Shown here in pieces: positions 20,562-49,035 of a stretch of DNA of 64,000 nucleotides. Location of the stretch: positions 434,001-498,000 of the forward strand of contig PABP01000014.1 in the NCBI GenBank assembly GCA_002699585.1, written 5' to 3'. The position numbers were made by a program, and so were the translations under genes. The notes beneath the pieces are model-generated. The model saw only the letters and a list, made by a program, of their open reading frames with translations, searched no databases and was not told the DNA's origin. This stretch comes from Anaerolineaceae bacterium. Its GTDB lineage: Bacteria > Chloroflexota > Anaerolineae > Aggregatilineales > Phototrophicaceae. Within the stretch, counting starts at the first letter, position 1. Each line of letters starts with the position of its first letter.

Positions 20562-21968
20562 GTGACGCCTCAAGACGCCTGGAAAGCTGCCTATCATCAA
20601 CTAGAACTGCAACTGGACCGCGCCAGTTTCGATACCTGGCTGCGCGATGTAGTTTTCTTAGGCTATGAAGCAGGTGCCTATTTAATCGGCGTGCCCAATG
20701 GCTACGCCCGCGACATGCTCCAGCACCGCCTTTACCGCAACATTCGCCGCGTACTGAGTGATGTCGCCGGGGAAGATTGCGAATTGCGCTTCGAGATCTA
20801 TAAAGGAGAGGTCGGCGCAGCGCCAGCCGAGCCTGAAAACGACGATATGCCGTTGTTTAAGTTGCTGGCCCAGCAGCCGGTGGAGCCAAAACCCGCCGCG
20901 CCGCTACCCTTGCATCAGGCGATGTTGCCACCGTCACGGCCCGACCTACCGGAGAGCGAACTCAACCCGCGCTACACGATGGACCGTTTTATCGTCAACA
21001 AGTCCAACAGCGTGGTTTACGAAGCGGCGTCTGCCGTCGCGGAGTATCCGGCGACCGTATACAATCCTTTTTTGATTTATGGGGGTGTCGGTCTGGGCAA
21101 GACGCACTTGCTACAGGCTATCGCCCACCAATGTACCGAGCGCGGCCTCAAGACGGTCTACATCCCGTCGGAGGTCTTCACCAACGATCTGATCGACGCC
21201 ATCCGCAGCCGTACCACAGCCATGTTCCGTGAAAAATACCGCACGGTCGATGTGCTGCTGGTCGATGACATTCAGTTCATCAGCGGCAAGGAGACCACGC
21301 AGGAAGAGTTCTTCCATACGTTTAACGCGCTGGTCAACTTCAACAAGCAGATCGTACTGGCATCCGACCGCCACCCGCGCGAAATGGCTACATTAGAAGA
21401 TCGCCTGCGGTCGCGCTTCCAGGGTGGGCTGGTTGCCGATATTCAGCCGCCAGAGTACGAAACCCGCATTGCGATTTTGCGCATGTGGGCCCAGGAGCGC
21501 GGCCTCCAGATTGATAACCGTGCCATTGAGATGATCGCCCAGCGTGCGCCGAATAACGTCCGCGAGTTGGAAGGCGTCTTCAACCAGATTGCCGCCCAGA
21601 CGCGCTTCAGCGGTGGCGAAGTCAATATTTCAGATGCCCGCCAGACTGTTGATCGCTTCCGCCGCCCGCGTGAGCACATCCAGATGGCCGACATCATCCG
21701 CGTGACAGCCGAAAAACACGGCCTGGATTCTGATGACCTGACCGGGACACGCCGTACTGGACGCATCAACCGCGCCCGCCAGATTGCCATGTTCATCGTC
21801 CGTGAGTTGACGCCCTACAGTCTGCCGCAAATTGGCGAGGCCTTCGGCGGACGCAGCCATACCACCGTGCTGCATGGTTGCAACAAAATTGCCGACGAAG
21901 TCGAAAACGACCCGGTGCTTGAAAGTCGCATTCTCAAGATCAAGCAGCTCGTCCAGCGCGGCATGTAA
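20562..21968 (+). CDS. dnaA: Chromosomal replication initiator DnaA
   Basis: DnaA binds origin boxes, melts the DNA and loads helicase. The 468-residue product has domain I (residues 1-85, WLRDV), a proline-rich linker, AAA+ domain III with Walker A GGVGLGKT (174-181) and Walker B LLVDD (232-236), and domain IV with GGRSHTTVLHGCNKI from residue 429. In the DNA-contact motif the usual aspartate before HTTV is serine (S432), which may relate to the altered boxes upstream. The start is GTG with only a weak ribosome site. A perfect terminator follows. Confidence 0.98.
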   Translation: MTPQDAWKAAYHQLELQLDRASFDTWLRDVVFLGYEAGAYLIGVPNGYARDMLQHRLYRNIRRVLSDVAGEDCELRFEIYKGEVGAAPAEPENDDMPLFKLLAQQPVEPKPAAPLPLHQAMLPPSRPDLPESELNPRYTMDRFIVNKSNSVVYEAASAVAEYPATVYNPFLIYGGVGLGKTHLLQAIAHQCTERGLKTVYIPSEVFTNDLIDAIRSRTTAMFREKYRTVDVLLVDDIQFISGKETTQEEFFHTFNALVNFNKQIVLASDRHPREMATLEDRLRSRFQGGLVADIQPPEYETRIAILRMWAQERGLQIDNRAIEMIAQRAPNNVRELEGVFNQIAAQTRFSGGEVNISDARQTVDRFRRPREHIQMADIIRVTAEKHGLDSDDLTGTRRTGRINRARQIAMFIVRELTPYSLPQIGEAFGGRSHTTVLHGCNKIADEVENDPVLESRILKIKQLVQRGM

Positions 21969-22020: not shown

Positions 22021-22315
22021 GATTCCTGCCTGTTCCCAGATCGATTTTAAGCGAAAAAAACTCAGATTTGCTGCCCTCGCTGGCACAGTGCTGATTAGCC
22101 TGTGTTGGCTTTTTTCCACTATCTACCACCTTATTTGCGATATTTGGCTGATTATCTCCCACATTTCACCCACTTTTTGTCACAGCCGCAACCTAGCAGT
22201 CATCGCAGCCAAAAACGTACCAGATGGAAAACCATATGGAACGCCTTTCGTGGGCCAAATCGCCTACGCTGATGGGTGATCGTTTCAAAGGCGCAGCATG
22301 CGCACAGGAGACACC
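22021..22315. other. Intergenic region after dnaA
   Basis: This roughly 295-bp gap contains a short AT-rich core with TTATTTGCGATATTTGG and TTATCTCCCACA, the former echoing the GCGATAT motifs of the upstream candidate origin. An 86-codon frame here lacks a ribosome site and looks spurious. Whether the origin is bipartite around dnaA cannot be told from sequence alone. Confidence 0.35.
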
Positions 22316-23749
22316 ATGTTTAACTGGCTAAGCAATATCTTCAGTGATCGGCAGCAGTTACGGGCCGATACCCCCCACGTGGAAGCCGTCGCAGTCCATA
22401 ACAGCGCTCTCTATAACGACGCGCTCAGTGCGGCTAGCAACAGCGAAATCTATCAGCAGTCGCCGTGGATATACGTGGCTGTCAACCGCATTGCGGAAGC
22501 AGGCGCGTTGGTCCCACTAAGGGTGCTGCGCTTGCAGGGCGAGACGCGCCTCCAGGTGGAGCGTCACCCGCTTGAAGTCCTGCTGGATGCCCCCAATCCC
22601 TTCCTCAGCCGCTTTGAGCTGTTCGAGCAGACATTTGGCATGCTTGAACTTACAGGCAATGCTTACTGGTACCTGACGGGCAACAACAGCGGCCAACCAG
22701 CCCAAATCTGGCCGCTGCGTGCCGATCGCGTCAGCATCGTGCCCGACCCGAACGGTTATGTACGTGGCTATGTCTACGAGGTGGATGGCAAGCGGATTCC
22801 CTATGAACCATTGGAAATCGTGCATTTCAAGCGCTGGCATCCCGCCAATGACTACTATGGCCTGTCGGCGCTGTCGGCGGCGCGCTTGGCGGTCAACAGC
22901 GACCGGGCCATGGCGCGCTGGAACCACAACACCTTCGGCCAGGATAATGGCGTTCCGGCGGGGATTGTGGCCATTCAGGACAACATCACTGATGGCGATT
23001 TTGAGCGCATCAAGCGTGAGTGGCGCAGTAGTTACGGCGGCGGCCAGCGTAAAACGGCCTTCCTGCGTGGCGGCACCGTCACCTGGCAGAATATTGGCCT
23101 CAGTCATACCGACCTCGACTTCCTCAAAGGGCGGCAGGCCCACCGTGATGAGATACTCAATATCTTTGGCATTCCGGTGGGGCTGGTGAGCGAGAATGCG
23201 ACCGAAGCCAATGCCAAAGTCGCTGAGCGCCAGTTCATCGAGCGCACACTGTGGCCCAAGCTGGTCCGTCTCTCTCAAAAGATCACCCAGGAATTGCTGC
23301 CCTTCTATCCGGGTGAGCATGTTGCTGAGTTCGAGGACATTCGTCCGACGGATACCCAGGCGCGTCTGGAGGAAATCCGTGCCGCTCAGGCGGTTCTCAG
23401 CATCAACGAGATTCGTTCACGCTACTATGAACTACCTTCGGCTCCCTGGGGTGATGTCCCGGTGGCCCTGGCACAGTCTGATACGAGCCAGCAGTCGCAA
23501 GCACCCGCGTCTGATGACAGCACCCAGGCGGCGGCATCTGCCAAATCCCAGGCTGATGAACTGTCCCAATGGGAGCGCTTCGCCCTCAAGCGGCTGGGTC
23601 GTTCAGGCGGACGCCCCTTTGAAGTCACTGTGCTCCCGGATGATCTCGCCTTTGAGATCAGTGCCAAGCTGCTAGCTGCGGACGATAAAGAGGTGGTTAA
23701 GGCCGTGTTTGCAGAGGCAAAGTCGCAGTTGGATGCAGAAGATGAGTAA
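22316..23749 (+). CDS. HK97-type phage portal protein (orphan)
   Basis: The 477-residue product matches HK97-family portal proteins, which form the dodecameric DNA gate of tailed-phage heads. Cues are SPWIYVAVNRIAEA near residue 50, ELTGNAYWYL, WPLRADRVSIVPD, a HFKRW strand, then GIPVGLVSENATEANAKVAERQF and a polar Q/S/A linker before a helical tail. The frame is intact. No terminase, protease or capsid gene adjoins it. AGGAG five bases before the ATG at 22316 supports this start over 22298. It is probably a domesticated or stranded phage gene. Confidence 0.92.
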   Translation: MFNWLSNIFSDRQQLRADTPHVEAVAVHNSALYNDALSAASNSEIYQQSPWIYVAVNRIAEAGALVPLRVLRLQGETRLQVERHPLEVLLDAPNPFLSRFELFEQTFGMLELTGNAYWYLTGNNSGQPAQIWPLRADRVSIVPDPNGYVRGYVYEVDGKRIPYEPLEIVHFKRWHPANDYYGLSALSAARLAVNSDRAMARWNHNTFGQDNGVPAGIVAIQDNITDGDFERIKREWRSSYGGGQRKTAFLRGGTVTWQNIGLSHTDLDFLKGRQAHRDEILNIFGIPVGLVSENATEANAKVAERQFIERTLWPKLVRLSQKITQELLPFYPGEHVAEFEDIRPTDTQARLEEIRAAQAVLSINEIRSRYYELPSAPWGDVPVALAQSDTSQQSQAPASDDSTQAAASAKSQADELSQWERFALKRLGRSGGRPFEVTVLPDDLAFEISAKLLAADDKEVVKAVFAEAKSQLDAEDE

Positions 23750-23897: not shown

Positions 23898-26738
23898 CTA
23901 ACTATCCTCATCGTCAGACGATTGCGCACCATCTAGGTAGCCAGCCAGCCACTTCATGACGTCGAGTGCGCTCTGCGGGGCTTGTTCGCCACGTGCCAAA
24001 CCCCGATCCACGGCTTCGTCACTGCGGATGAGGCTGGGCTTGCTGCGATTCGCGGCCATCGTGGTCAGTAATTGCGCTAGTTCCTTGAGGTTGATCGCCA
24101 GCACTTGCTGTTCATCCAGGCTGAGGCTGTCGTCGCGGGTTTGTAATACCGAGCGAATGGTGGCCGTATCCACGCCCAGGTTGCGCGTATTGCTATCGAA
24201 CCCATCGGCGATGGCCTCGAGCACGTTGTAAGCCGTGTTGACCTGTTCCGCGAAATCCGACAGGCTGCGCGTGCCAATCACTTTCCGCAGCGATACGTGC
24301 GTCTGCACAATTGCACGCATCTCTTCAAGCGTCCTCACACCTTCTAGCAGGCGGTCCAACTGCTGCAACTGGCTGACAGATAGCGCGCCGGTGTACTTAC
24401 GCCACCAGGACATCAGCGTCGCACGGGAAGAAGGATTCCAGTTGATGGCTTTGCGCAAGCGTAACAATTGGTCAGCGAAATCCTCATCGTAGTCAATGGC
24501 TGCGGACTCAATCATCGTGAGCAGCCGGGGAACGGCAACGCGCATAATTAGCTCGCTGCGGATTTCTGCTGCCAGATCGACCATACGCCACAGAATGGAT
24601 TCATCGACGATGATCTCGCTGTTTTGGTTGAGCATCCGCGCGAGCTGCTCGACGAGTTCTTCTTCGGCTTTTTCCCATGTGCGATCTTTCAGGATAGCCA
24701 GGTAGCTGTCAACCGCTTGCTGTGGCGTCAGGTGGCTGCTGCTGACCAGATTGCTGATGAGCATGATCTTGTCGTCATCATCGCGATGGCTTTGTTGCAA
24801 TACGCGCGGCAGCAGCCCTTCCAGGCGATCTTGTTGGGCCAATTCTGCGGCTAACTCCCGGAACAGGGCATCTTCATTGTCGTTGAGGATCAGAATGAAC
24901 AGGGCATCCAGGCCGCCGTTGACCAGTTTGCCATCTCCCAGGCGCACGACATCGTGAATGAGCGTGTTGGGACGGAATGGTTCGCCTACGCGCACCGAGG
25001 TTCCCTGGTAAAGCTGCCATAGCACGCGGATAATGGGCGCGTTGATGACGGGCGTGTCGTGATCCAGTCCACACCGAACGGCCAGCAAAAACATCTCGCG
25101 CGGGCCTTCTGCCAGGGCTTCGATGTCGGCGGTTACTGGTTCACGCAGGGCATTCCCCAACAAGTCCGGCAATTGCGCCAAAAAGTCATTGTCTTGCAGT
25201 AGCTCCGAGATTAAATCCGGCGCGCGCTTGATGGCAATCGTCAGCAGGTCGATTGCCAGTTCTTGATGCTGGCTGGCTAACGGCTTGGCAGCCACCAACC
25301 CATCGTGCAGCACATCCTGCAATTGATAGGCGCGCGGCTCACGGGCGATGAGTGTCAACCAGCGGCTGATGATTGATGGTTCGGTGGTTTCGATAGCCAC
25401 GTTGAGCGCGTTCTTTGCTGCTTCGTGCAGTCGACCCAGCCACTTTTCACGGCGGGCCTTGGCTTGTGGGTCGGCTTCAGCTTCAGCCTCACCATTTGCT
25501 TCCTTGCCATTGCTACCATTCAGATCAGCCAGGCTGGCACGGGCGATAACATAAGCCGTATCGGGTTGGTCGGCCAATGCCTCGTCAATCATCGGCTGAA
25601 TCTGGGCTTCCAGGTCGGGGTCGGCATCCAGGCGCTCGACTAGACTGGCAGCACTGGCGGCATCGTGATGGTCGAGCACGTTATGAAGCAGGCGCTCGAT
25701 GTAATGCGTATAGGCCTGTTCTGTGGGTGGGTGCGGGCTATCGAGCACGGCCAGCAGCAGTTCAGTGGTGACGCCATTGCCGGATTTCAGCGCATTATCA
25801 GCGCGGCTGCGGTTGGCGATATGCGTCAGACCGCCCTCGCGTGTGCTGGCCGCTAAGAGGGCCGTCGCATAAGGTTCTGTATCTTCCAGCACGGTCGTTA
25901 GGATGTCCAAGTCCTGCTCAGAAGCGCCCCACATGCTGTTGAGGTAAGCCACATAGGCATGGCTGGTCAACAGTGAGCCATCCAGCTTGAGCTTGGCCCA
26001 GTCCAGCGACCAGGCTGTTGTTTCCTGCGGCGTGGCGCTATCGCCTGCCGATGTGCTCGTTGGGGCCAGGTCGGGCGACGGTGCGTCAAATTGGAAATCG
26101 ACTGTTTCCGAGAATGTGGTCGCATGGGTATTGAACGTCACTGTGTGGCGGGTGGCTGTGGGTAAAAGCGCCAGCAATCCCTCGATGAGCGCCATACGCG
26201 CTTCCAGGTTCGGTGCAAAATGGGCGATGAGCAGCGGCTGTGGATGGAGTACCGCACCCAGCAAGGCGAACGCAGTCTGCATATCGTTGCCGGGTAGGAT
26301 GTCATATAGGTTTTGTAGGCGTGAACGCCGATCATAAGCCGGCGGCGTATCGTGAACGGTGAGCGGCTCTAAGGGCGCGTTGGTCACAGTGTTGTTGCTT
26401 GCTGGCATGGTCGCCAGGACTTGTAGCAGCGTGACATCCCCATTGAGTTCCGTCACGACGTCGGGCGGCAGCAGCACCAGATGAACACGGCTCGCCCCAT
26501 TGACGGTTTCCGCCAGGGCCAGCATCATTTCGTGTTCGATGTCAGGATGAGGTACATAAGCCAGGGCCTGTGCTTGGCCTGCTTCGTCGGCTTGCAACGG
26601 AAGCAAAGCAGTGGCTTCTACCAGCGAGGCAATCGCCTCAATGGGGAAGTCGTCACTCTGGCCTAAGACAACCGCCGGATCCTCTGCGGTGACTGGGTTG
26701 GGGATGTTATATACAGCATGTTGCAGGACGAACGTCAC
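23898..26738 (-). CDS. Large soluble helical protein, unknown function
   Basis: No family is recognised with confidence for this 946-residue protein. It has no signal peptide or transmembrane segment. The N-terminal 230 residues are mixed, with a TATRHTVTFNTHATTF strand that faintly recalls GTPase-associated (GAP1-type) proteins. The rest is a long run of helical pairs, with an acidic linker rich in EAEAEAD near residue 420. Helical-repeat scaffolds of this sort usually hold partner proteins. The start is GTG with GGGAAG upstream. It is followed in the same direction by nothing and converges on the portal gene through repeat copy A. Confidence 0.72.
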   Translation of the reverse strand: MTFVLQHAVYNIPNPVTAEDPAVVLGQSDDFPIEAIASLVEATALLPLQADEAGQAQALAYVPHPDIEHEMMLALAETVNGASRVHLVLLPPDVVTELNGDVTLLQVLATMPASNNTVTNAPLEPLTVHDTPPAYDRRSRLQNLYDILPGNDMQTAFALLGAVLHPQPLLIAHFAPNLEARMALIEGLLALLPTATRHTVTFNTHATTFSETVDFQFDAPSPDLAPTSTSAGDSATPQETTAWSLDWAKLKLDGSLLTSHAYVAYLNSMWGASEQDLDILTTVLEDTEPYATALLAASTREGGLTHIANRSRADNALKSGNGVTTELLLAVLDSPHPPTEQAYTHYIERLLHNVLDHHDAASAASLVERLDADPDLEAQIQPMIDEALADQPDTAYVIARASLADLNGSNGKEANGEAEAEADPQAKARREKWLGRLHEAAKNALNVAIETTEPSIISRWLTLIAREPRAYQLQDVLHDGLVAAKPLASQHQELAIDLLTIAIKRAPDLISELLQDNDFLAQLPDLLGNALREPVTADIEALAEGPREMFLLAVRCGLDHDTPVINAPIIRVLWQLYQGTSVRVGEPFRPNTLIHDVVRLGDGKLVNGGLDALFILILNDNEDALFRELAAELAQQDRLEGLLPRVLQQSHRDDDDKIMLISNLVSSSHLTPQQAVDSYLAILKDRTWEKAEEELVEQLARMLNQNSEIIVDESILWRMVDLAAEIRSELIMRVAVPRLLTMIESAAIDYDEDFADQLLRLRKAINWNPSSRATLMSWWRKYTGALSVSQLQQLDRLLEGVRTLEEMRAIVQTHVSLRKVIGTRSLSDFAEQVNTAYNVLEAIADGFDSNTRNLGVDTATIRSVLQTRDDSLSLDEQQVLAINLKELAQLLTTMAANRSKPSLIRSDEAVDRGLARGEQAPQSALDVMKWLAGYLDGAQSSDDEDS

Positions 26739-46812: not shown

Positions 46813-46843
46813 TAGAACAGATGTGCGTAATACATTTGTTCTA
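46813..46843 (+). promoter_or_regulatory. Inverted repeat upstream of the phage-like cassette
   Basis: TAGAACA at 46813-46819 and TGTTCTA at 46837-46843 are perfect inverted arms separated by 17 bp, 35 bp before the start at 46878. Each arm carries one half of a LexA-type box (GAAC...GTTC), but the spacing is not the standard four bases. Confidence 0.45.
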
Positions 46844-46877
46844 TTCATGACATATTCACACAGGAGAGGATCGTTCC

Positions 46878-48020
46878 ATGCAGTTATATGATTCGCTGCC
46901 CGGTGTGGCCCTGTTGCGCCACAACCCATCGTCTTATCAGGCGGCGGTGATGCAGCTAGCGCCTTTGGGCTGGTGGCCGCTTGACGAAGATAGTGGGGCG
47001 ATTGCGTCCAACCGCATCTATGCGCAGCTCCCCGGCCCGGAACTCGTCGCTAATGGTGACTTCAACAGTTGGGTCAGTGATGATCCTTCGGGTTGGGTAC
47101 TCATGTCAGAGTCCGCGCCTAATCGGGTTATCAGCGAACGTGACCCCGACCAGCTCGCAGCCGACACCCCGACGGTAGGTGGGGCGGCCAACTTCAAAAG
47201 CGACACGCCCTATCAGCCATCGATCCGGCAGACGGTGGTTACACACGGTTATACCTATGAATTCGTGTTGGATGTCAGCGCAGCGGGCCAGGGCCAGATC
47301 ATGGTCTATGATCTGGTTGGCATCATCATTCAAGGCAACGTTAGCACGCGTACCAAGCGCCATATCATGCTGACGGATTGGTTCGCCATGTGTCCGTACA
47401 CGGTGCCCTGTGATGTTACTGCTGACCGCATCAGCGTGCGCAAAGTTGGCGAGATGGATGCCACAATAAAAGGAACGACATCCATGTCGTTAGCCGGGGC
47501 CAGCCCGATGACAGGCAGCGCGCTTGCTTTTGATGGCGCGACCAGTGCGTTGGCTGTCACTGATAGCCGCTTAAATGGCCTGGACGAACTCACGCTGATG
47601 ATGCTGGTCAAGCTCGACAACGCGGGTGAAGCTGACAATGGCCATCTGATGTACAAAGCAGATGAATTCACCTGGCGCGTGCTGCCTTCCGGTCAGATCG
47701 ATTGCACCATTGAGTACAGCACGACCAACGCCCAGGCGGTCAGCGCGACAGGGGCCTATAGCACCGGTGAATGGGTCTGGTTGACTTGCCGCATCGGGGC
47801 TGATGCCGTGCCGCATCTCTTCGTCAACGGCACCGAAGTCAGCTATGCCACCCAGACCACGGGCAGCGGCCTGCGTACCAGTGACACGGGCAATCTATTC
47901 ATTGGTAATGATGACGGCCAACTGGCAACGCTGGATGGGCTGGTCGACGAAGTGCTGGTGTTTGATCGCGCGTTGACCGATGGTGAAATCAGCACCCTGG
48001 TTCAAAGGAGCGACATATGA
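46878..48020 (+). CDS. Phage-tail-appendage-like protein with LamG domain
   Basis: The 380-residue protein starts with the pattern SSYQAAVMQLAPLGWWPLDED, typical of laminin-G/concanavalin modules on phage appendages. A carbohydrate-binding-like beta domain follows at about residues 55-200 (VANGDFNSW...SDDPSGW), then a second LamG fold at about 210-375 (GSALAFDGATSALAV, LTLMMLVKLD, WVWLTCRI, GLVDEVLVFDRALTDGEI). It has no signal peptide. AGGAGAGGA precedes the ATG. Its stop overlaps the next start (ATGA), so the two are coupled. Confidence 0.82.
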   Translation: MQLYDSLPGVALLRHNPSSYQAAVMQLAPLGWWPLDEDSGAIASNRIYAQLPGPELVANGDFNSWVSDDPSGWVLMSESAPNRVISERDPDQLAADTPTVGGAANFKSDTPYQPSIRQTVVTHGYTYEFVLDVSAAGQGQIMVYDLVGIIIQGNVSTRTKRHIMLTDWFAMCPYTVPCDVTADRISVRKVGEMDATIKGTTSMSLAGASPMTGSALAFDGATSALAVTDSRLNGLDELTLMMLVKLDNAGEADNGHLMYKADEFTWRVLPSGQIDCTIEYSTTNAQAVSATGAYSTGEWVWLTCRIGADAVPHLFVNGTEVSYATQTTGSGLRTSDTGNLFIGNDDGQLATLDGLVDEVLVFDRALTDGEISTLVQRSDI

Positions 48021-48571
48021 GCCAGCCAACGCATCGTGACCCGGTCCGCTGCTATGCGGCCATACATGCCCCGGTGGGTAACGCGCCCGCCCTCAAAGAG
48101 TGGCCGCTGCTGCTCAATGGCATGGATCTCGCGCTTGACCTGGGCATCAACCGTGTGGCCAAACAGGCGCGCCACCGCGTGTCCTTTGGCAAAGTCAGCC
48201 AGGGGAAGGGCCGTCTGGGGGCATCTGCCATCATCAGCTTTGAACTGTCGCCAGCCGATGCCGACGCCCTGCTAAGTGGCTCAGAAAGTCGTTTGCGTCA
48301 GCGTGCCCGTGACATTGGCCTGACTGACGAAGCGGATGACCGTCGTTTGCTGGAAAAACTGCTGCGGCGCTTGCCAGGGGAGGCACTCGCTCATGTCCCC
48401 GATCTCCGCCAGTCCCTGAAATGGACGCAGTCCAAAGCGACCGCCATCGGCAACGGCATGCAGGTAGAAATCATTACTCTGGCTGAAAGTCAACTCGCCC
48501 AGGCCCAGATGCAACGTTATCTGCGTGACCATGCCGCCGACTGGTATCCAGCGGCCCGGAGCGCCACCTAG
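48017..48571 (+). CDS. Unknown protein of the phage-like cassette
   Basis: The family of this 184-residue protein is not recognised. It begins with a polar segment and then a WPLLLNGMDLALDLGINRVAKQARHRVSFGK region, followed by highly charged helices rich in R, L, A and E (RLRQRARDIGL, RRLLEKLLRRLPGEALAHV). Its start overlaps the LamG gene's stop by four bases, and AAGGAG lies seven bases upstream. Position between two phage-structural-like genes suggests an assembly or structural helper. That is inference from location only. Confidence 0.7.
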   Translation: MSQPTHRDPVRCYAAIHAPVGNAPALKEWPLLLNGMDLALDLGINRVAKQARHRVSFGKVSQGKGRLGASAIISFELSPADADALLSGSESRLRQRARDIGLTDEADDRRLLEKLLRRLPGEALAHVPDLRQSLKWTQSKATAIGNGMQVEIITLAESQLAQAQMQRYLRDHAADWYPAARSAT

Positions 48572-48669
48572 TAGCGGCAAGAGAAGTCTTGCTCAAGGGG
48601 TTGGCCTGCCAATCCACTACAAAACGACCTGTAAAACCACCCAGCCATCACCATAAAGGAGCAAACATC

Positions 48670-49035
48670 ATGGCTGAATATCAAATTGACGTGACCACAA
48701 GCGGCTCTGCCGGGGCCGCCAGTGGCACTCAGCGCACGGATAGCCCCGTGCGCGGTTTCGTGTATGCCATCAAGATCGACTATGACGGCGCTGCCCCTGG
48801 TAGCACCACAGTCGCACTTGTGGAAGAAGGCGGTCTTGCACAGACCCTCGTCGACTTGGACGCTGGCAACAGCGATCTCACCCTCTATCCGCGCGTCCAG
48901 GAGACGCAAAACGACAATACCCCCACCGGTGCTCATGGCTTTTACTTCGTCGATGGGCGTCACCTCGCGCTATCTGTCTCCAATAGTGACCCCCTCGCCA
49001 ACGCCGTCCGCGCGACGATCCAGGTGCTGGGGTAA
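48670..49035 (+). CDS. Small phage-structural-like beta protein
   Basis: The 121-residue protein has the pattern of small phage head/tail-associated proteins: YQIDVTTSGSAGAASGTQRTDSP, GFVYAIKIDYDGAAPGSTTVALVEE, LTLYPRVQETQND, GAHGFYFVDGRHLALSVSN and a final RATIQVL strand. Proteins of this layout commonly accompany portal and capsid genes in prophages. I chose the ATG at 48670 because AAGGAG lies nine bases upstream. It ends the cassette and is followed by a terminator. Confidence 0.72.
   Translation: MAEYQIDVTTSGSAGAASGTQRTDSPVRGFVYAIKIDYDGAAPGSTTVALVEEGGLAQTLVDLDAGNSDLTLYPRVQETQNDNTPTGAHGFYFVDGRHLALSVSNSDPLANAVRATIQVLG

Follow-up and report, generated by a model that had tools for sequence, protein, structure and literature searches.

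The window, i.e. the whole 64-kb stretch of DNA analysed here, carries a gene for a phage portal protein in the order dnaA, portal, a gene for a 946-aa protein and then recO. We refer to the genome of the window (6.7 Mb) as G000 and to its congener as G001; f1 is the window's family, f3 and f4 are other families, g12 and g17 are genera, L followed by a number is a locus read, and C followed by a number is a contig of a genome. The features at the locus are as follows (positions in the window).

20562-21968, plus strand: dnaA, a host gene (ORF and Pfam); neighbour of the portal gene only in the window's genus
22217-22242, plus strand: repeat of the CCATATGG type in the promoter region of the portal gene, putative (by eye)
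22255-22271, plus strand: possible degenerate counterpart of the SOS box with a -10-like element (CCAAATCGCCTACGCTG), putative (by eye)
22316-23749, plus strand: HK97/RcGTA-type portal protein, 477 aa, intact (Pfam, PHROG and structure match)
23898-26738, minus strand: 946-aa neighbour, outside the module described below, without a Pfam (E <= 0.001) or PHROG match

The portal ORF is unbroken and is preceded by an AGGAG ribosome-binding site just upstream of the ATG. The protein matched Pfam Phage_portal (4.6e-61) and the PHROG portal family (1.8e-66), and it passed the PF04860 test with 208.5 bits against a curated cut-off of 39.1, covering profile positions 2-318 of 321. Among solved structures, the RcGTA portal Rcc01684 was closest (1.8e-33). 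Moreover, it is the single Pfam portal match (E <= 0.001) in the whole G000 genome. An earlier sequence-only reading had described a full-length, uninterrupted portal gene between dnaA and a large gene, and the 477-aa ORF with dnaA and the 946-aa gene as neighbours confirms this description.

When the window was searched by tblastn with queries for the module genes (TerL, capsid, adaptor, terminator, hub, fibre and two tape measures), the portal gene was the sole match at E <= 0.01. Contiguous structural, replication and integration genes as in an intact prophage were not found, the portal being the only module gene in the window and the others lying on other contigs. Thus, the statement that the portal stands without terminase, protease or capsid genes holds for the window but not for the genome, in which homologs are present at other loci.

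Among the 20 genomes with both a dnaA match and a portal gene, the two genes are close to each other in two (G000 and G001, the latter with a 204-aa gene between them) and on different contigs in 18. The position beside dnaA is, therefore, a trait of the window's genus and does not extend to the other genomes. Because the linkage is confined to this genus, we reject a special role of the portal at oriC/dnaA and conclude that its dnaA neighbourhood is incidental. As a separate observation, a DnaA match at E <= 1e-60 was found in none of the six g17 genomes (G017, G033, G043, G049, G052 and G058) and in 20 of 20 other genomes; DnaA may be divergent or lost in this genus.

The portal gene is alone locally, but not genome-wide: it is one piece of a scattered packaging set. 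In G000, the genes for a TerS-like protein and TerL are on C5, the capsid gene is on C25/C34, the portal gene on C28, the genes for adaptor, terminator and hub on C17 and a fibre operon on C25. The G000 hub was detected at 6.4e-4 with an f3 query and is 65% identical to the G001 hub. With capsid, TerL, adaptor and other partners encoded at other sites of G000, the portal is no orphan, and the idea of a lone portal lacking a capsid partner was wrong; the partners are present but scattered.

In order-level relatives, TerL is encoded directly upstream of the portal and the remaining module genes are located a few kb further on. The capsid protein is a 603-aa protease-capsid fusion (PF05065, 6e-12; weak PHROG match of the protease part, 3e-4), and the head-tail adaptor in relatives matched PHROG at 2e-20. 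After the adaptor, order-level relatives encode a terminator-like protein, a protein of about 490-500 aa and a fibre-like protein, and the fibre-like operon also encodes a small hydrophobic protein. Matches, weak or repeat-only ones included, were found in 70 (capsid), 73 (TerL), 75 (adaptor) and 73 (490-aa protein) of 101 genomes, and the fibre-like protein in 29 of the 29 genomes searched, some of which had provided the query alignment (2.1e-16 in G000). The putative TerS was called from where its gene lies, from an N-terminus resembling an HTH and from weak PHROG matches of three proteins (0.0003, 0.0038 and 0.016); for two of these candidates, a different and unrelated family scored slightly better. 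The motifs GRxxGKT, LDEAA and HDD are invariant in 31 TerL sequences, as are HG, WSSGS and EGSLTP in 30 capsid fusions; we take these motifs to be the motor, nuclease and protease sites.

Other genes were noted around these loci. Genes for TIR-domain (often TIR-HEAT) proteins recur beside module loci in three families; they were confirmed by Pfam at L085 and L244 and identified by eye at L090, L091, L092, L101, L089, L237 and L245. Serine-recombinase-like ORFs were identified by eye near the terminase genes of G001 (L096:10673-12436) and near the fibre operon of G050 (L159:14882-16639).

We built AlphaFold models of the terminator and the hub from family alignments (mean pLDDT 82.8 and 85.2, respectively). 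For the terminator model, the similar structures were tail terminators of the lambda gpU type, with E values down to 3.8e-4 and a TM-score (to target) of 0.64; for the model of the about 490-500-aa protein they were phage and VgrG hubs, with E values down to 9.6e-16 and a TM-score (to target) of 0.74 for 3d37. The terminator is thus predicted to have the lambda gpU fold and the ~500-aa protein the gp27/VgrG hub fold. Terminator and hub genes adjoin, or the former just precedes the latter, in most of the f3 and f1 loci that we read, and in most of them there is no gene of tail-tube or tape-measure size between the two; in the G006, G036, G010 and f4 loci, no terminator was called. A tail tube, a tape measure or a sure lysis gene was not recognised with PHROG and Pfam profiles, which would miss such genes; because a tape-measure-sized protein of 724 aa at L102 matched nothing in PHROG or Pfam at E <= 0.05, these profiles cannot exclude a tape measure.

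We analysed the window's genome together with 100 relatives, i.e. 101 genomes. A portal match (E <= 0.001) was found in 68 of these, with strong same-type orthologs in 61, and 29 portal loci came from genomes named as Anaerolineae, Anaerolineaceae, Anaerolineales, Chloroflexi or Thermoflexus. The lists of strong matches were picked by hand, leaving out weak or prophage-type matches, i.e. portal matches below 45% identity, capsid matches below about 56%, TerL matches below 45% (fragments excepted) and partial or repeat matches to the adaptor. With these hand-picked matches, portal and capsid occurred together in 60 of the 101 genomes, the portal alone in one and the capsid alone in two, and 38 genomes had neither; portal, capsid, TerL and adaptor were all present in 57 genomes (46 in f1, seven in f3 and four in f4).

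In f1, 33 of the 46 genomes with all four genes have the portal and capsid genes on separate contigs, and six have them at most 10 kb apart; contig separation is not a measure of distance because most of the genomes are fragmented MAGs. In f3, TerL is at most 3 kb from the portal gene in 7/7 genomes and the capsid gene at most 10 kb from it in 4/7. G001 consists of one 5.63-Mb contig, on which the portal gene is at 2.5 kb, TerL at 244 kb, the adaptor gene at 1,313 kb and the capsid gene at 1,350 kb, and this settles the dispersal for one genome. In G035, the genes for TerL, portal, capsid, adaptor and hub are on the same strand and span about 48 kb. An ancestral order TerL-portal-capsid-adaptor-terminator-hub would have been progressively dissolved, with a route from cluster (f3) to dispersal (f1) that is readable in living relatives. 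Finally, in a phylum-wide draw of 400 genomes, any capsid match was found in 13 and a strong one only in G000 and G015, which are the two genomes of the window's family with a capsid match in this draw.

Lengths range from 396 to 514 aa across the 40 portal ORFs that were read, and one of these ORFs (447 aa) is truncated by a contig end. In pairwise comparisons (NG86), dN/dS was 0.050-0.302 for the portal in 13 pairs and 0.018-0.165 for DnaA in the eight pairs with a value; between G000 and G001, synonymous sites of the portal gene are saturated (dS 2.15). The TerL pair G043/G058 had a dN/dS of 0.41 and is probably a pair of paralogs; G043 has four TerL matches. Distances of portal and capsid were correlated with a Mantel rho of 0.88 (n = 30), and those of both proteins with DnaA distances at 0.86 (n = 20 for the portal and n = 18 for the capsid), while the correlation with DnaA was weaker for TerL (0.73, n = 20) and the adaptor (0.59, n = 13). 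In the capsid tree, which has long viral branches and 15 of 37 inner branches without resolution, the module sequences do not appear as one clade (four label changes), and they may have had one origin or several. The distance correlations favour vertical inheritance of the module with its host, for which the capsid tree does not show a single origin. In total, we conclude that the module genes are under purifying selection and that the divergence of portal and capsid parallels that of DnaA.

The sequence-only reading had suspected domestication or selection of the portal, and had named decay or absence in relatives and a full prophage elsewhere as observations that would speak against it. Domestication of the portal and the module is supported by the strong orthologs in 61 of 101 genomes, by the portal dN/dS of 0.05-0.30 and by portal distances that track those of DnaA. 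For the most part, neither adverse observation was made; still, some relatives are without the whole set, portal matches with apparent internal stops are present in G002, G016 and G036, and two further phage-like clusters (L147 and L246), with tape-measure-sized genes of 840 and 711 aa and distant hub or fibre homologs, were noted in the congener G001.

GAAC-N4-GTTC is the LexA pattern of Gram-positives, as given in PMC3323433. We searched for it with at most one mismatch in the 300 bp upstream of module genes (up to 900 bp for TerL), and it was found upstream of 29/31 TerL, 19/30 capsid, 12/40 portal and 2/24 adaptor genes, compared with a background of 81/716 upstream regions (300 bp). The exact pattern is present at five of the 40 portal genes, all of genus g12. 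The form GAAC-N4-GTGC followed by TA was found at 20/31 TerL and 18/30 capsid genes, in one orientation throughout, with a background of 42/705 (600 bp). The common box emerged from testing a named LexA pattern; k-mer enrichment over upstream regions yielded mostly locus-specific words.

In 21 whole genomes (97.9 Mb), the box GAACNNNNGTGCTANNNTG has 70 sites, compared with two for the reversed control. For 26 of the 70 sites, a module gene starts within the next 700 bp (13 TerL, 11 capsid, one portal and one fibre), with 0.03 expected, an enrichment that is partly circular because the box was derived from such regions; the other 44 sites are away from module genes. A site at a module gene is present in 15 of the 21 genomes, and none is at a module gene in G001, G009, G010, G033, G035 and G041. 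In G026, all three sites in the genome are those of portal, capsid and terminase, on three contigs, and in G012 both sites are those of capsid and terminase. The box was also found before recA (G001 and G029) and before ftsK/spoIIIE-like, nurA and alkZ-like genes, with further sites before genes without a clear link to repair. Of the 18 recA loci that could be read (15 genomes), 14 have GAACN4GTKC (two of the 14 inside an assigned ORF; four more loci were unreadable); it is likewise present and at lexA in 12 of 21 loci (one inside an ORF; some loci with little upstream DNA).

We take the box to be the SOS operator of the clade. Judged by sequence, a LexA-type box in common with recA and lexA is present at the TerL and capsid loci of many, not all, genomes, which may place their expression under host control. 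The window's own portal gene has no SOS box at up to one mismatch in its promoter and would not be counted in the SOS regulon. By eye, the CCATATGG-type repeat occupies the place in this promoter at which g12 orthologs have GAAC-N4-GTTC, and CCAAATCGCCTACGCTG, compared by eye with GAACAGATGTGCTACGCTG in G026, may be a degenerate counterpart of the box. Small proteins consisting only of a LexA DNA-binding domain are encoded near terminase or portal genes in several genomes (L150:17303-17521, L090:5055-5288 and L092:17208-17456) and are possible dedicated regulators. Independently, two identical boxes GAACATTCGTGCTACTCTG were found in G000, at C19:3006 (L334) and C23:609563 (L332), each just past a match resembling a LexA DNA-binding domain; and RecA appears to be split by a LAGLIDADG-type, intein-like insert in G029 (L279:3-1451), with similarly split RecA matches in G010, G044, G026 and G076.

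A second phage-like operon with an SOS-like box is located at 46815-49032 of the window.

46815-46826, plus strand: SOS-like box GAACAGATGTGC, 51 bp before the operon start at 46878, candidate only
46878-48017, plus strand: LamG (concanavalin-like lectin) protein, virion-structural-like, candidate accessory (phrog_8510, 7.6e-6; PF13385, 3.1e-20)
48017-48568, plus strand: 184-aa protein in the same operon as the LamG gene, no family match at E <= 0.05
48670-49032, plus strand: 121-aa protein; five IMG/VR contigs encode a counterpart with 32-42% identity

The box GAACAGATGTGC is one of several GAACN4GTKC in the window. The IMG/VR counterpart of the 121-aa protein is encoded slightly downstream of a capsid gene. 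At the corresponding site in G001, the LamG operon is absent and the flanking genes are about 0.4 kb apart.

The capsid gene of G000 has a box upstream (C25:135224) and is split: its N-terminal half is followed by a serine recombinase gene (profile-tested), and the C-terminal half is on another contig. The split gene was noted at the following positions.

L099:11477-13172 (G000 C25): split capsid gene
L100:10617-10626 (G000 C34): split capsid gene

Both junctions have GCCCATCGAA in common, with a 10-bp core. In G028 and G047 (loci L249 and L238), the C-terminal capsid half begins at about the same codons after foreign DNA, at a right-hand junction. Elements may thus integrate into the capsid gene recurrently. 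Because the G000 capsid gene is split by an integrated element, module activity in this genome would need excision.

Altogether, these observations make it reasonably probable that the genes form a dispersed, SOS-linked, GTA-like system. In this reading, one order of Anaerolineae would have domesticated a viral module for head, neck and tail tip, which consists of a TerS-like protein, TerL, portal, protease-capsid fusion, adaptor, gpU-type terminator, gp27/VgrG-type hub and a fibre-like operon. We favour a GTA-like system because motor, portal, capsid and neck have been kept by selection without linkage and are in part wired to SOS boxes. As in GTAs, the host lineage has retained structural and packaging genes of viral origin and, judged by the gene distances in G001 (2.5 kb to 1,350 kb on one contig), the whole set would not fit into one particle. 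This suggests a tamed virus that ships host DNA.

In such a system, DNA damage would activate RecA, LexA would be cleaved, and the operons with the observed SOS boxes would be turned on together, i.e. those for terminase and capsid and, in some genera, portal and fibre. Capsid, portal and terminase would together form a procapsid and load host DNA into it, and because the genes are far apart the particle could not carry its own gene set. The neck would be sealed by adaptor, terminator and hub, and the missing genes hint that the tail tube may be very short or lacking. Lysis would free the particles, and kin cells would receive host DNA from them, which may serve as templates for repair; release and delivery are proposed here by analogy with the Caulobacter GTA. 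The fuller reading, that this is an independently domesticated Anaerolineae GTA in which free-standing genes are held together by the SOS regulon, with hub and terminator and no tape-measured tail, and which delivers DNA to kin upon damage, is tentative, and we place it somewhat short of an even chance.

The main rival is a bacteriocin of the PBSX kind that is SOS-induced, packages host DNA and kills or binds competitors without delivering DNA. PBSX is an SOS-induced defective phage, a contiguous prophage with a full contractile tail. The SOS boxes and the retained hub and fibre-like parts would fit such a particle, as would the LamG lectin gene of the window with its SOS-like box, and no tail tube was recognised; however, head genes that are dispersed and a set in which no tail tube was recognised would suit a killing particle poorly, and we consider this explanation unlikely. 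Less likely still are separate exaptations, by which each gene would have its own, unrelated host role, e.g. the portal as a DNA-translocating ring. Such roles would agree with genes that are unlinked and have differing neighbours, including a window portal that adjoins dnaA, but are at odds with the near-perfect co-occurrence, the boxes common to terminase and capsid, the conserved motor and protease motifs and a dnaA linkage that is not conserved.

That the capsid and packaging parts form an anti-phage device switched on by damage is very unlikely: TIR-domain genes recur near module loci (two by Pfam, the rest by eye), but a full motor, portal, neck and hub would exceed the needs of interference. 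Least probable, at the margin of what we would consider, are one or several decaying prophage remnants or a live phage with a scattered genome: viral relatives with the same capsid fusion exist (L351-L355), the set was lost in some relatives, three portal matches have apparent stops, the capsid gene is split in G000 and serine-recombinase-like ORFs lie near module genes in G000 (profile), G001 and G050 (by eye), but portal ORFs of 396-514 aa, dN/dS well below 1, portal and capsid distances that follow DnaA and no recurring integrase or replication gene by eye in the other loci read argue against them, and given intact ORFs with low dN/dS we reject a recent prophage or decay as the main reading.

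If the GTA-like system is real, orphan phage genes in environmental genomes may be parts of a working machine of which the cluster has dissolved, and finders that require a gene cluster would miss such systems. Moreover, a GTA-like system tied to host SOS boxes would be a testable case for the purpose of GTAs, i.e. repair templates after damage. Among the papers listed in our literature searches, no title or opening of an abstract describes such a system for Chloroflexi, Chloroflexota or Anaerolineae.

Among viral sequences, IMG/VR contained one relative of the window's portal (32%) and nine of the capsid (32-56%), and in 50,697 phage records no place covered 80% of the portal or capsid query. 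The siphovirus-like IMG/VR contigs L351-L355 have the same protease-capsid fusion, with a capsid part 53-57% identical to that of G001, and homologs, where found, of portal (33-45%), TerL (40-44%, L355 only) and adaptor (27-33%). Going by position and length, two of these contigs (L351 and L354) have a tail-tube-sized gene and a tape-measure-sized gene of 825-898 aa after the terminator; in the module, by contrast, the hub follows the terminator in most of the f3 and f1 loci that were read.

The module resembles RcGTA in its portal, which is closest to Rcc01684, in HK97-type head genes kept by the host and in genes at several loci. RcGTA is described as having at least 24 genes in five loci (PMC10883770) or at least five loci (PMC7947584). 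A fragmented GTA is reported to revert less easily to a phage (PMC13420450). CcGTA of Caulobacter is controlled by the LexA-like repressor RogA and aids survival and DNA repair after damage (PMC9632790). RcGTA has 17 genes in one head-tail cluster, whereas the window's family has its terminase, portal and capsid genes at loci apart from each other; moreover, in the Anaerolineae module protease and capsid are fused, and a tail tube or tape measure was not recognised. It also differs from the alphaproteobacterial GTAs in that its boxes would be those of the host SOS regulon and its hosts are Anaerolineae. Finally, the module is similar to PBSX in its SOS link and presumed packaging of host DNA; PBSX is one contiguous prophage, whereas the Anaerolineae set is dispersed.
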